Below are positions 13,997 through 42,318 of a stretch of DNA of 48,143 bases, one piece after another; position 1 is the first letter of the stretch, and every line of letters starts with the position of its first letter. The notes beneath the pieces were generated by a model, which was not told the origin of the DNA, did not search any database, and saw nothing but the letters and a program-made list of their open reading frames with translations. Position numbers and translations under genes: made by a program. Origin of the DNA: an uncultured Clostridia bacterium (GTDB lineage: Bacteria > Bacillota > Clostridia > Oscillospirales > Ruminococcaceae); assembly GCA_947628615.1 (NCBI GenBank), contig CANRAO010000011.1:1-48143 (forward strand), read 5' to 3'.

Positions 13997-14034
13997 AGGA
14001 AAGGGGATATGCTCTTAAGGGGCAGGGCAAAATG
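13997..14034 (+). promoter_or_regulatory. sigE leader: distal SD, hairpin and mini-ORF before the start codon
   Basis: AGGAAAGGGG (13997-14006) ends 25 nt before the sigE ATG (14032). Between them lies a small hairpin with arms GCTCT (14011-14015) and GGGGC (14019-14023) and a TAA loop. Its 3' arm contains a second SD-like AAGGGG (14017-14022) 9 nt from the start. An ATG at 14009 opens an 8-codon ORF (MLLRGRAK) whose TGA overlaps the sigE start as ATGA (14032-14035). The same arrangement precedes the genes at 28174 and 42046. Confidence 0.6.
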
Positions 14035-14748
14035 AAATTAAATTTATTTTTTAATAAAGTTCTAAGCAAGATCACTATTTTATTCAACAGAAAGAAGAAG
14101 TATATAGATTATATAAACGGCTCTGAATCACTTCCTCCTCCTCTTTCAGCCGAGGAGGAAGAAAGAGCCTTCGATCAGATAAAAAACAACGATAACAGAG
14201 GAAGAGAGACTCTGATAGTGCATAATTTAAGACTTGTCGTATACATAGCGAAAAAATTTGAATCTACAGGAATTGGAATCGAAGACTTGATTTCAATAGG
14301 AACGATAGGGTTGATTAAAGCGGTAAACACATTTCAGGTCGATAAAAATATAAAGCTTGCAACGTATGCGTCTAGATGCATTGAGAATGAAATACTAATG
14401 TTTCTGAGAAAATCCAATCAATACAAAAACGACATTTCAATTGATGAACCTCTTAATGTAGACTGGGATGGAAATGAGCTTTTGCTTTCAGATATTTTAG
14501 GCACAGATGAGGACGTAGTAATAAGGGGAATAGAAAATGAGGTAGAGCGCGAGCTTGTTTTAATTGAGATTGAAAAATTAAATGACAGAGAAAAACAAAT
14601 TATGAAAATGCGTTTTGGTTTATTAGGTGAAAAGGAAATGACTCAAAAAGAGGTAGCAGATATTGTCGGAATATCTCAGTCATACATATCTCGCCTTGAA
14701 AAGAGAATACTAAAGACAATAAGAGAAAATTTAGAGAAGATATGTTAG
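14032..14748 (+). CDS. sigE: RNA polymerase sporulation sigma factor sigma-E (pro-form)
   Basis: Early mother-cell sigma factor, made as an inactive membrane-associated precursor. The N-terminal 25-29 residues are basic and hydrophobic ([18 protein letters not shown]). They are followed by [13 protein letters not shown], where SpoIIGA cleaves in relatives. Region 2 ([31 protein letters not shown]), the [11 protein letters not shown] stretch typical of sigma-E, and the region 4 helix-turn-helix ([21 protein letters not shown]) are all intact. The 238-aa length matches the family. It lies downstream of spoIIGA on the same transcript. Confidence 0.97.
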
Positions 14749-16425: not shown

Positions 16426-16436
16426 ATCAAAAATTA

Positions 16437-16675
16437 AAGGCTGTGATAAGAACAAGTAGCATATCCTTGTTATTTTAAGAGAGCTTTCGGTCGGTGTGAG
16501 AAAGCAATAACGGATTTGTGAATACATCTTTGAGCCGATATTCTGAAATTGCAGTAGGTTTATTCGACTTACGCCCGTTAAAGCGTTATGAGTTCATGGT
16601 GAAGTTTAACGCTGTGATAAATTGAGGTGGTACCACGATTTATTCGTCCTCTGGCTTTTGTCAGGGGATTTTTTT
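16437..16675 (+). ncRNA. T-box leader (tyrosine), with terminator
   Basis: Tyrosyl-tRNA-sensing transcription attenuator. The stem I base GGCT (16439-16442) pairs with AGCC (16533-16536). The specifier TAC (Tyr) is at 16523-16525, followed by A, in GAATACA. The T-box GAGGTGGTACCACG (16624-16637) lies in the antiterminator, closed by TAAAT/ATTTA (16618-16622/16638-16642). The variable base of the TGGN bulge is T, fitting the A73 discriminator of tRNA-Tyr. The terminator stem is TCCTCTG/CAGGGGA (16647-16653/16662-16668) with seven T. Uncharged tRNA-Tyr should stabilise the antiterminator and switch tyrS on. Confidence 0.96.
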
Positions 16676-16809: not shown

Positions 16810-18030
16810 ATGACATTATTTGAAGAACTAAAAAGAAGAGGTCTGTTAGCTCAGCTAACAGACGAAAAGGAAATTGAGGAACTAGTCAACGCAGGAAAAG
16901 CCACATTCTACATCGGTTTTGACCCTACTGCTGACAGTCTGCACGTCGGTCATTTTATGGCTCTTTGCCTTATGAAAAGAATGCAGATGGCAGGAAATAA
17001 GCCAATTGTTCTTATCGGCGGCGGAACAGCTATGATAGGCGACCCATCTGGAAGAACAGATATGAGAAAGATGATGACCAGAGAAACCATTCAGCACAAT
17101 GTTGACTGCTTTAAAAAGCAAATGAGCCGTTTTATTGATTTTTCTAACGACAAAGCAGTTATTGTAAACAATGCCGACTGGCTTATGGACTTGAATTACG
17201 TTGAGGTTTTAAGAGAAATAGGACCGCACTTCAGCGTAAACAGAATGTTATCACACGAGTGCTATAAGCAGAGAATGGAAAGAGGTCTATCTTTCCTTGA
17301 ATTCAACTATATGATAATGCAAAGCTATGACTTCTATGTTCTATATCAGAAATACGGCTGTAATATGCAGTTCGGCGGAGACGATCAATGGGCGAATATG
17401 CTGGGCGGAACCGAGCTTATCAGACGCAAGCTTGGAAAAGACGCTTATGCAATGACGATAACTTTACTGCTCAATTCAGAGGGCAAAAAGATGGGCAAGA
17501 CTGAGAAGGGTGCTGTATGGCTTGACGCAGATAAAACCTCGCCATATGATTTTTACCAGTACTGGAGAAACGTAAATGACGCTGACGTTATAAAGTGCTT
17601 AAAGATGCTCACCTTTGTTCCTATTGAGGAAATCGAGGAAATGGAAAGAACTATGGAGGGCGCAGAACTAAATAAAGCCAAAGAAATATTAGCATATGAA
17701 CTTACAAAGCTAGTTCACGGTGAAGAAGAGGCAGAAAAAGCACAGAATGCCGCCAAATCAGTTTTCGGAAGTGCAGGTGTAAGCGACGATATGCCGACTA
17801 CTAAAATCAGCGCCGATGATTTGAACGAGGACGGCTGTATAGGTCTTCTGACGCTGTTAGTCAAGTGCGGTCTTGCGTCGTCAAACGGTGAAGCTAGGCG
17901 TCTCGTGCAGCAGGGCGGAGTATCAATAAATGATGAAAAGATTTTAGAACCAAAGATGTTCTTAAACCTTGATGAATCTGTAATTATCAAAAAAGGAAAG
18001 AAAGTTTTCCATAAAGCTGAAAAAGAATAA
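16810..18030 (+). CDS. tyrS: Tyrosyl-tRNA synthetase
   Basis: Class I synthetase charging tRNA-Tyr (406 aa). The Rossmann fold shows [16 protein letters not shown] (HIGH equivalent HVGH). The tyrosine-binding [17 protein letters not shown] and the [14 protein letters not shown] region are present, and the KMSKS loop reads KKMGKTEKG. The C-terminal S4 RNA-binding domain (about 340-400) includes [31 protein letters not shown] ribosome site precedes ATG 16810. Controlled by the upstream T-box. A terminator shared with the converging dnaI-like gene follows. Confidence 0.98.
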
Positions 18031-28112: not shown

Positions 28113-28140
28113 GTTAATATTTTATAAATAACCTACGTTA

Positions 28141-28176
28141 AAGGAGGATTGCTCCTTATGGGGCGCAGTAGTAATG
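28141..28176 (+). promoter_or_regulatory. Leader of the HlyD-like gene: distal SD, hairpin and mini-ORF
   Basis: Perfect AAGGAGG (28141-28147) lies 26 nt before ATG 28174. In between is a hairpin with arms GCTCC (28151-28155) and GGGGC (28160-28164) and a TTAT loop; its 3' arm offers a second GGGG 10 nt before the start. An out-of-frame ATG at 28158, 10 nt after the distal SD, opens an 11-codon ORF (MGRSSNEFYYS) that runs 20 nt into the gene. It has the same architecture as the leaders at 13997 and 42014. Confidence 0.6.
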
Positions 28177-29412
28177 AATTCTATTACAGTTAAAGTTCTA
28201 GGTGTTGCTTTATCTGTTTTTATACTGATTATGGTCGGAAGTCAGATTGCCTTTATGATAAATAATTCGCACGATACCGAGGAAGCTGTACTTTATACCG
28301 TTAATGAAAATATAACCTTCAAGGGTATGTTTTTGCGTGATGAAAGAGTTATAAATTACGATAATACCAGCGGCGGAGTTATAAATTATCTCTACGGTGA
28401 CGGATTGAAGGTCGCTGAAAATTCAGCTATTGCCAAGGTTTACAGCAATGGTGATCAAATTTATTATAGAAACAGATTGTCAAGGCTGAAAACTGTTTTA
28501 TCCGATTTAAAAAGAGCTCAGAGTCCGGGTACAACTAATTATGTTCAGGCTGAGTCACTCAGAAGTAAAATTAAAAATGATTATCTGAATGTAACGAATA
28601 TGATTCAGCAAAAGGATTATTCGTCTGTAAGCTCTAAAAGTGACGATTTACTATATACAATGAATATATATAATATTGTCACCGGTTCTGAAGCAAATTT
28701 CAAACCTATGATAAATCAGATAAAATCGGAAATCAATGATTTAAAAACTAAGATAGAAGATCCTGTTGACAGTATCAATACCAACAGTGCAGGTTACTTT
28801 GTTAAATCTGTTGATGGGTATGAATCTTCGGTGTCATATGACGATATAGATAATATGTCGACTGACGAGCTGAAAAAGCTGTTTGATATAAAACCAAAGG
28901 TTACGGATAATACAGTAGGAAAAATTTTAAAAAGTTATGAATGGAAGTTTCTAGGCATAATTAAGAACACAAATAAGTTTCTTATAAACGACGGGTTGTC
29001 GATAAGATTCAATTCATCTAATAAAGTGTATGACGTTACGGTTGACAGTATAAAGCCAATCGACGGCACTAATAATAGCGTTGTAATTCTAAGCTGTAAT
29101 GAAATTGATGAAAATGTGCTGAGCAGCAGATTTGATAATGCTGAACTGATTTTTGATGAATATACCGGTGTTAAAGTACCGAGAGAGGCAATCAGATTTC
29201 AGGGTAAGCAAAAGGGCGCTTATGTAATGCTGGGGCAGCAAATAACTTTTAAGAAAATTGATGTAATATATGAAGGCGACGACTATGTATTATCTAAAAA
29301 TACATCTGACGACAGTTATCTTCTTTTGTACGATCAAATTTTATTAGAGGGGGTCAGCACTGATGAAGTCACCTCAGAAACAACAACCGACTCAGAAACA
29401 AATTCGGGATAA
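28174..29412 (+). CDS. HlyD-like membrane-anchored envelope protein of the division cluster
   Basis: A 412-aa protein with one N-terminal transmembrane helix (about 6-28) and a large outside part. A HlyD/biotinyl-lipoyl-like barrel half (SGGVINYLYGDGLKVAENSAIAKVY) is followed by a helical hairpin (about 95-185) and then the second half with DGLSIRFNSSNKVYDVTV and KVPREAIRF. This is the layout of periplasmic-adaptor (HlyD) proteins, but no transporter gene is adjacent. Similar proteins sit before ylmE-sepF in Clostridia, so a division or envelope role is inferred. The C-terminal 50 nt overlap ylmE, and the tail is Thr/Ser-rich (TSETTTDSETNSG). Confidence 0.7.
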   Translation: MNSITVKVLGVALSVFILIMVGSQIAFMINNSHDTEEAVLYTVNENITFKGMFLRDERVINYDNTSGGVINYLYGDGLKVAENSAIAKVYSNGDQIYYRNRLSRLKTVLSDLKRAQSPGTTNYVQAESLRSKIKNDYLNVTNMIQQKDYSSVSSKSDDLLYTMNIYNIVTGSEANFKPMINQIKSEINDLKTKIEDPVDSINTNSAGYFVKSVDGYESSVSYDDIDNMSTDELKKLFDIKPKVTDNTVGKILKSYEWKFLGIIKNTNKFLINDGLSIRFNSSNKVYDVTVDSIKPIDGTNNSVVILSCNEIDENVLSSRFDNAELIFDEYTGVKVPREAIRFQGKQKGAYVMLGQQITFKKIDVIYEGDDYVLSKNTSDDSYLLLYDQILLEGVSTDEVTSETTTDSETNSG

Positions 29413-38246: not shown

Positions 38247-39191
38247 ATGAGTGAAGTAGTTAAAAAGGCTACCAGAGAAAGCTATGGAGAAGCATTGGCT
38301 GAACTGGCAGAAAAATATGAAAACTTATATGTTTTTGACGCTGATCTGGCTGCCGCTACAAAAACGGGTATTTTCAAAAAGAAATATCCTGAGAGGTTTT
38401 TTGACTGCGGTATTGCAGAAGCGAATATGATGGGCGTTGCAGCAGGAATGGCAGCAACAGGGAAAATACCTTTTGCGTCGACCTTTGCAATGTTTGCAGC
38501 AGGCAGAGCGTATGAGATAGTAAGAAACACCATTGGCTATCCGCATCTGAATGTTAAAATCGGTGCAACTCATGCCGGAATTTCTGTAGGTGAAGACGGT
38601 GCAACTCACCAGTGCAATGAGGATATTGCTCTTATGAGAACCATTCCAGGAATGACAATTATTAATCCTGCTGATGACGTTGAAGCAAAAGCCGCAGTTG
38701 AAGCCGCAATTCTTCACGAAGGACCTGTATATATGAGATTTGGACGTCTTGCAGCACCAATATTTAATGACAAGGAAACGTACAAGTTTGAGCTTGGCAA
38801 AGGAATTAAGCTGACCGACGGAGACGATATAGCAATTATTGCAACAGGTCTTATGGTATCTGAGGCACTAACTGCCACTGAAGAACTTAAAAAAGACGGA
38901 ATAAACGCAAGAGTTATTAACATCCATACGATCAAACCTATTGATAAGGATATAATTCTTGAAGCTGCTAAAGATACGGGATTAATTATTACTGTTGAGG
39001 AACACAGCGTTATCGGAGGACTTGGCTCGGCTGTATGCGATGTTGTATCTGAAAGTCTTCCTACAAGGGTCATTAAAATCGGAGTAAATGATGAATTTGG
39101 TCATTCTGGACCGGCAGTTGATCTGCTTAAAGAATTCGGCTTGTCATATGATAACATTGTTAAAACGGCTAAAGAGGCTCTCGGAAAATAG
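38247..39191 (+). CDS. Transketolase, C-terminal subunit
   Basis: A 314-aa partner of the preceding gene, 3 nt after it. The central pyrimidine-binding domain (about 5-165) includes DADLAAATKTGIFKKKYPERFFDCGIAEANMMGVAAG and THAGISVGEDGATHQCNEDIALMR. The C-terminal transketolase domain (about 190-310) has INIHTIKPIDKDII and EEHSVIGGLGSAV. Both subunits are full length for the split form, so this is not a broken gene. A terminator follows. Confidence 0.95.
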   Translation: MSEVVKKATRESYGEALAELAEKYENLYVFDADLAAATKTGIFKKKYPERFFDCGIAEANMMGVAAGMAATGKIPFASTFAMFAAGRAYEIVRNTIGYPHLNVKIGATHAGISVGEDGATHQCNEDIALMRTIPGMTIINPADDVEAKAAVEAAILHEGPVYMRFGRLAAPIFNDKETYKFELGKGIKLTDGDDIAIIATGLMVSEALTATEELKKDGINARVINIHTIKPIDKDIILEAAKDTGLIITVEEHSVIGGLGSAVCDVVSESLPTRVIKIGVNDEFGHSGPAVDLLKEFGLSYDNIVKTAKEALGK

Positions 39192-42012: not shown

Positions 42013-42013
42013 G

Positions 42014-42048
42014 AAGGAGGAGCCCCTAAGGGGTAATGATTAAAAATG
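42014..42048 (+). promoter_or_regulatory. gatC leader: distal SD, hairpin and mini-ORF
   Basis: AAGGAGG (42014-42020) lies 25 nt before ATG 42046. A hairpin CCCC/GGGG with TAA loop (42023-42033) lies between, its 3' arm being another SD-like AAGGGG. An out-of-frame ATG at 42036 opens a 6-codon ORF (MIKNEY, stop at 42054-42056) that overlaps the gatC start. It is the third member of the set with the sigE and HlyD-like leaders. Confidence 0.6.
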
Positions 42049-42318
42049 AATATTGATATTAAACACATTGCAAAATTGGCAAGGCTTCGTATTGAGGACG
42101 AGGAGCTGGAAAAATTCAAAAATGATATGCAGGGAATAGTTGAAATGGTTGAAAATCTCCCTGGTGACATAAAGGACGAGCCTTTGCTTGACCCTGAAAA
42201 TTCAATGATACTAAGGGAAGATATAGTAAGAGAAAATAAATATTCACGAGATGAACTGACAAAAAATGCACCTCATGTTACTGCAGGCTGCCTTGTAGTT
42301 CCAAAAACAGTAGAATAA
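42046..42318 (+). CDS. gatC: Asp/Glu-tRNA amidotransferase subunit C
   Basis: A small 90-aa subunit that stabilises GatA and GatB in the GatCAB complex, which amidates Glu-tRNA(Gln) and Asp-tRNA(Asn). The N-terminal IDIKHIAKLARLRIEDEE and the extended C-terminal part ending VTAGCLVVPKTVE are typical. It is followed 13 nt later by gatA. The leader is unusual, with a distal SD, a hairpin and an overlapping mini-ORF. Confidence 0.94.
   Translation: MNIDIKHIAKLARLRIEDEELEKFKNDMQGIVEMVENLPGDIKDEPLLDPENSMILREDIVRENKYSRDELTKNAPHVTAGCLVVPKTVE

Follow-up and report, generated by a model that had tools for sequence, protein, structure and literature searches.

Hairpins that are looped out between a Shine-Dalgarno sequence (SD) and a start codon are known from single genes, namely genes 25 and 38 of phage T4. 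Among the dispersed structured repeats of Firmicutes, BOX of pneumococcus occurs as many short structured copies near gene starts, and we know of no split ribosome binding site (RBS) that forms its end at a start codon. According to the T4 study, folding of the hairpin shortens the distance between SD and start, which drops from 27 to 11 nt in gene 25 and from 22 to 5 nt in gene 38, and destabilising the structure of the split RBS lowers initiation (PMC3014915). At the split RBS of E. coli thrS, the region bound by the ribosome includes a hairpin that is accommodated in its folded state (PMC3936740). Unlike the elements described here, thrS is a single autoregulated gene and not a dispersed family. 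A search of open-licence full texts yielded only these T4 and thrS cases and no prior description of the element reported here.

In the window, i.e., the whole stretch of 48,143 nucleotides under analysis, three leaders on the forward strand have a strong SD far from the start and a hairpin between the two, resembling in this respect T4 genes 25 and 38. The sporulation sigma factor gene sigE (14032-14748, ATG at 14032; NF006158, E = 4.7e-109) is preceded by the distal SD GAAAGGGG at 13999-14006 and the spacer hairpin TGCTCT-TAA-GGGGCA at 14010-14024. Downstream of hfq, the gene of a HlyD_2-domain protein, here called hlyD (28174-29412, ATG at 28174; PF12700, E = 1.4e-35), has the distal SD AAAGGAGG at 28140-28147 and the hairpin TGCTCC-TTAT-GGGGCG at 28150-28165. 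The third gene, gatC, located between ligA and gatA (42046-42318, ATG at 42046; TIGR00135, E = 5.1e-16), carries GAAGGAGG at 42013-42020 and a divergent member of the hairpins, GCCCC-TAA-GGGGT, at 42022-42034. Counted from the last G of the SD, the start codon is 25 nt (sigE), 26 nt (hlyD) and 25 nt (gatC) away, and in each leader the SD is followed after 1-3 nt by a 5-6 bp hairpin, which 7-11 A/T-rich nucleotides separate from the start. The layout put forward in the initial annotation, a distal SD at 25-26 nt with an intervening hairpin, is present as described in all three leaders. Comparison with Rfam gave no gathering-level match of any cis-regulatory family at these leaders. The sole Rfam cis-regulatory match of the window was a T-box leader (16434-16654, forward strand, 135.4 bits) upstream of an ORF at 16810, which, judged by eye, we take to be tRNA synthetase-like.

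The layout was scored by a rule requiring an SD of -8.5 kcal or better that ends 19-30 nt before an ATG and, within 5 nt, a hairpin of at least 5 bp and at most -3 kcal, and 50 rounds of dinucleotide-shuffled leaders served as the null. It was found in 19 of 335 sampled genes of the source genome (448 kb), with about 11 nt between hairpin and ATG, as compared to 0.18 on average and at most 2 per round after shuffling; this is not a genome-wide rate, since the stretches were chosen after model matches were known there and the density is uneven (3/176 genes in C2, 12/109 in C3, 1/11 in C1 and 3/39 in the window). We conclude that the layout exists and is much more frequent than chance would allow; the enrichment over shuffled leaders, whose absence had been named as evidence against it, was obtained. 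By eye, the stems of about 15 of the 19 leaders are of the GCUC type and those of three or four are not, implying that the layout extends beyond the sequence family. Leaders with other stems in the source genome are L269 (8356, minus strand; UUCUCC), L274 (12304; UACCC) and L278 (10313; ACCUUUG). In the sister species G006, the rule selected 3 of 323 genes (0.28 shuffled), and in two of the three cases the ATG is internal to a longer ORF. Samples from other families gave 3/145 (G191), 3/86 (G121) and 1/67 (G032), and the layout was absent from the samples of G018, G016, G022 and G017.

Two covariance models were built, R1 from 12 and R2 from 43 sequences; copy numbers derived from them are lower bounds, with 150 candidates scored per genome and 35 in the family-wide search. 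R1 gave at least 46 matches at E 10 or better in the source genome, at least 25 of them below 0.1, and scored the hlyD hairpin at 40.4 bits, a sequence that belonged to its training set. When 30 of the 46 were read, 29 were found before a long ORF; the remaining one, L119, is a chance match before an ordinary SD start and was left out of the element set. Searching 41 genomes with R2 at E 0.1 and 150 candidates scored each revealed at least 23-38 matches in each of ten genomes of the same genus, hereafter the clade (G000, G002, G003, G004, G005, G007, G009, G010, G012 and G014). Five sister species had 0, 0, 1, 0 and 1 matches, G016 had one and the other 25 genomes had none. The window copy before gatC scored weakly with R2 (19.5 bits, E 0.42), and its orthologues in G003, G010, G012 and G014 reached 39.7-43.2 bits; gatC is the weakest case among the three window leaders, and its probable assignment rests on these orthologues.

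Model matches in five clade genomes yielded 90 distinct elements, and all 90 stand directly before the start codon (89 ATG, 1 TTG) of an ORF of at least 60 codons. The SD lies 23-33 nt from the start with a mode of 29, the stem mostly 8-12 nt from it, and the loop is mostly 4 nt long; the distance from SD to start, given as 25-26 nt for the three window leaders in the initial annotation, is near-fixed. Annotated downstream proteins comprise CdsA, Dxr, AtpF, FtsQ-type POTRA, YebC, HisD, RNase J, CTP synthase, PlsX, PP2C, a histidine kinase and transport proteins, and no common function or regulon is apparent among them. Carriage by phages or plasmids was considered and rejected, as the searches gave no match, and so was a larger mobile unit around the clade copies, whose flanks share no similarity beyond the element. 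An origin confined to the clade had been suggested by the pattern GCTC..GAGC, for which 26 of 29 stretches were from rabbit-gut 'Lapin' MAGs and 3 were single others; this reading was dropped because the pattern allowed 5-6 nt between GCTC and GAGC and missed forms with longer stems.

Pairing of the stem was assessed in 81 distinct rows. Pairing is possible in 95.1% of cells as compared to 91.4% after shuffling, 25 cells are changed on both sides (4.2 shuffled), and the covariation score was reached by 0 of 500 shuffles and was far above that of slid versions of the alignment, which, being fitted to the model, leans toward pairing; the orthologues found via their proteins are independent of the model. 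The stem covariation anticipated in the initial annotation was, thus, found. The pair-type count of the 81-row set (231/500 shuffles), covariation within yebC alone (82/500 shuffles) and most covariation measures of the first 12-sequence set were not significant. G.U cells numbered 41 in the short form versus 6 A.C cells, as expected if RNA and not DNA is under selection, and a DNA palindrome or operator is disfavoured by this count; the contrast is weaker in the long form described below (23 G.U versus 13 A.C). We conclude that the element is structured, that its pairing is conserved by selection and that it belongs to a dispersed family.

Leaders of orthologous genes, which were located through the similarity of their proteins in up to 14 congeneric species, were scored by a fixed rule blind to the stem sequence, and a clade tree was built from nine syntenic proteins. 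Within the clade, the split layout is kept before atpF (10/10), dxr (10/10) and yebC (9/9) with 5-7 distinct stems each, before sigE in 7/10 with 7 distinct stems, and before gatC in 8/10, hlyD in 4/10 and cdsA in 4/10. The sigE leaders retain a purine-rich SD in 10/10 orthologues (by eye), and their stem is weak in G010, G012 and G014. For atpF, the stems UAUGCUC/GAGCAUA, UUGCUCC/GGGGCAA, UUGUCCC/GGGGCAA and CUUGUUCG/CGGGCAAG differ in sequence, with pairing kept. In sister species, the rule found no split layout before gatC (0/5), hlyD (0/5) or yebC (0/4), and none was seen by eye before cdsA, atpF and dxr. Loss of hairpin and spacing from orthologous leaders had been named as evidence against a shared element; sigE, yebC, atpF and dxr keep them, whereas hlyD, gatC and cdsA gain or lose them.

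Gain and loss can be followed at orthologous sites. The gap upstream of cdsA is 0-1 nt (stop to ATG) in five clade genomes and at least 70 nt, ending in the element, in four; in G005 (L302), a 78-nt remnant is devoid of the 5' hairpin arm but still has GGGGC close to the start. Upstream of the gene that begins at 38247, the gap measures 57 and about 125 nt in two genomes versus 2-4 nt in the others read, a comparison that leaves out G014. By parsimony on the clade tree, the gatC hairpin was lost in G002 and G009, leaving a normally spaced SD. In the source genome, cdsA and dxr (L121/L098, contig C3, approximately 78.2-79.1 kb) are adjacent and have a copy of the element each within 1.1 kb.

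These comparisons bear on the possibility that a trans-acting regulator (protein, small RNA or ligand) binds to the hairpin and controls the translation of a scattered set of genes. Such a site would fit the elaborate full element and the conservation of stem and loop beyond pairing, i.e., GCUC in 80 of 81 rows at most positions, a preference built into the R1 and R2 searches, which favour GCUC stems by construction, and a loop biased to U-W-A-M. However, membership turns over between close species, the downstream genes have no obvious function in common, and orthologues and some other leaders have the same layout with different stem sequences. We regard a regulator site as unlikely.

The initial annotation had also counted an overlapping mini-ORF into the layout, and one exists in each of the three window leaders. 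This, together with the 35 of 90 elements in which a mini-ORF opened by an out-of-frame ATG reaches the start region, could speak for a device for translational coupling or re-initiation. Its ATG is, however, found at three different places in the three leaders (5' arm, loop and after the hairpin), the position, start codon and frame of the mini-ORF vary (frames 35, 21 and 17 of 73), and an ATG adjoining the distal SD is only 1-2 nt from it. Orthologues lose it as well: the hlyD mini-ORF is gone in G005 and G009, that of gatC is kept only in G000 and G007 among the 8 genomes with the element, and AAG replaces the ATG of sigE in 4 of 10. A coupling device, which is conserved neither across orthologues nor across the 90 elements, was rejected as very improbable, and the mini-ORF part of the layout looks like chance. 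Of the shared small element proposed earlier, SD, hairpin, near-fixed distance and covariation, hence, persist, and the mini-ORF does not.

Spacing was analysed for 88 elements, leaving out 2 of the 90 in which no core was recognised. With the hairpin closed, 12-13 unpaired nt lie between the distal SD and the start, compared to 7-8 nt for ordinary SDs of the source genome (142 measured) and 11 nt for T4 gene 25. The 90 elements have the SD more than 20 nt from the start and a conserved hairpin between the two, as is characteristic of the T4 type; they differ from T4 genes 25 and 38, which are single phage genes, in that dozens of host genes have a related hairpin and part of the copies a longer upstream structure. 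The predicted probability of stem closing has a median of 0.87 and a 10th percentile of 0.05, and the distal SD is predicted to be 55% unpaired versus 51% for ordinary SDs. Inner length is the same in 76 of 88 hairpins, and a fit of spacing against hairpin length rests on two outliers. The 3' end of the 16S rRNA with the anti-SD was recovered in 0 of 15 genomes, the single match ending near position 902.

Since the 3' arm is itself SD-like (GAG or GGGG), a two-state switch had been suggested, in which the closed hairpin uses the distal SD and the open hairpin frees the proximal SD; the 5' arm CUCC could, moreover, also pair with the distal SD. That the 3' arm is hidden upon folding agrees with prediction (7% unpaired, i.e., 93% paired). 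The same value argues against opening of the hairpin as the normal route, as does the position of this arm 12-13 nt from the start, a spacing matched by 7 of 142 ordinary SDs, and the G005 cdsA leader devoid of the 5' arm is evidence only of the persistence of a remnant and not of a switch. A switch is, thus, improbable, and slightly more so than the regulator site. The probable mechanism, for which anatomy and precedent speak well, is initiation from the distal SD across a closed hairpin, i.e., a split RBS. The last 40 nt of the element would constitute a complete RBS with the hairpin looped out; the 30S subunit would bind the distal SD without opening the hairpin, the 26-29 nt spacer would thereby act as roughly 12-13, and the hairpin would probably be kept looped out at the edge of the mRNA channel.

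Searching 197 genomes of the family with R2 (35 candidates scored each) gave matches at E 0.01 in six, namely three clade genomes, G153 (at least 1), G191 (at least 2) and G206 (at least 5). At E 1, 20 of 21 genomes of the G206 genus had matches, which were mostly weak, with at least 25 in G206 itself. All 25 G206 matches read precede an ORF starting with ATG, and 17 of 19 loci from other members of the genus stand at an ORF start, L363 and L369 being apparently false. The copies there have a long form of approximately 150 nt, consisting of an AT-rich hairpin, a three-way junction closed by GCGAGUUUUGUGC/GCACAAAACAUCGC, the SD AAAGGAGG, a final hairpin of 6-8 bp of the GCUCC/GGAGC type, about 10 nt and the start codon. 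In 16 copies, which are related and whose structure was derived from one of them (L431), 91.0% of cells pair (83.2% shuffled), and changes on both sides affect 19 pairs and 46 cells compared to 9.6 and 13.9 after shuffling (0/500).

Among the families of Rfam, the long form was matched suggestively by TD-2 RNA (RF03162) alone, which likewise has a hairpin, a stem with CGAGUUUUGC/GCAAAACUCG, a linker and a hairpin. The consensus linker of TD-2 lacks GGAGG, the best match, with 35.3 bits, is below the gathering score of 48.7, and in 3 of 3 matches (L425, L428 and L367) the strand is opposite to the leader; membership in TD-2 was rejected on score and strand. No TD-2 match was obtained at E 1 in the clade loci with long copies L138, L139, L124 and L237. 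From these sequence comparisons, TD-2 may be a relative of the long element modelled on the other strand.

A long-form profile (nhmmer) matched clade loci in G014 (L138, 101.8 bits), G002 (L139/L124) and G003 (L237/L196), so that long copies are present in two genera; the search covered a subset of loci, in which 5 of 10 or so copies are expected to be seen by chance. Most clade long copies have the same fold, and L196 folds uncleanly. In G004 (C1, L220/L145), the 3' part of the long element was weakly matched a second time, approximately 1.1 kb from the first match. A near-full element stands before ftsQ and plsX in G002, and in the source genome the two genes have the SD-hairpin module alone, with proteins 85% and 81% identical, respectively; in the source-genome ftsQ leader, AAAACATCGA is still visible. 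The layout of the three window leaders appears to be the 3' end of a longer dispersed element that the initial annotation had not seen. Since nhmmer did not place the full element anywhere in the window, the link is indirect, and the three leaders are probably decayed copies of it.

Convergent hairpin spacers that arose from ordinary leaders, with no dispersed element and with an unrelated long form in other genera, would account for the few split leaders with other stem sequences and for the dissimilarity of the flanks of different copies in one genome beyond the element. Against this, long copies in the clade and in the genus g108 have the SD, the hairpin and the AAAACAUCGA box in common, and several G206 copies before different genes are 90-95% identical over approximately 110 nt, so that we consider convergence improbable, slightly more so than a switch.

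Such near-identical dispersed copies are a feature of MITE- and IS-like elements, and one G206 copy is 97% identical to a copy in G231. Among the 25 downstream protein fragments of G206, the single weak similarity (L415-L424, 24% over 71 aa) implies that the copies did not spread with their genes. Mobility of the long form is likely, and the spread would have occurred by copying; neither a transposase nor a mechanism of insertion came to light. Of 14 long copies, 5 have an SD-like sequence (-7 kcal or better) at most 22 nt upstream of the element, versus 1 of 14 control windows, a count that left out four long copies without a clear first hairpin and others too near a contig end or above the E limit. 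It is conceivable, though rather doubtful as a whole, that a mobile or actively copied element lands between the SD of a gene and its start, bringing a split RBS on which the host gene becomes dependent.

Taken together, we favour, at a probability of roughly 60%, a dispersed structured element that installs a hairpin-split RBS like that of T4 gene 25 and of which older copies keep only the SD-hairpin module. Once a copy is placed before a gene, its upstream domains would decay while SD, fold and distance are kept, as we propose because the gene by then relies on them for its translation.

If a mobile or actively copied element does land between SD and start as considered above, it would be domesticating the start codons of genes throughout a bacterial family, and copies that have worn down would become ordinary-looking leaders. 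The layout stands before dozens of genes in one clade, including sigE, atpF, yebC, dxr, ftsQ and cdsA, and gene-finder spacing rules would miss such starts. With the same gene occurring with and without the layout, and with many compensated stems, natural replicates are at hand that render the limits of ribosome accommodation testable. Should the long element be mobile, it would constitute a repeat that propagates by providing genes with translation starts.
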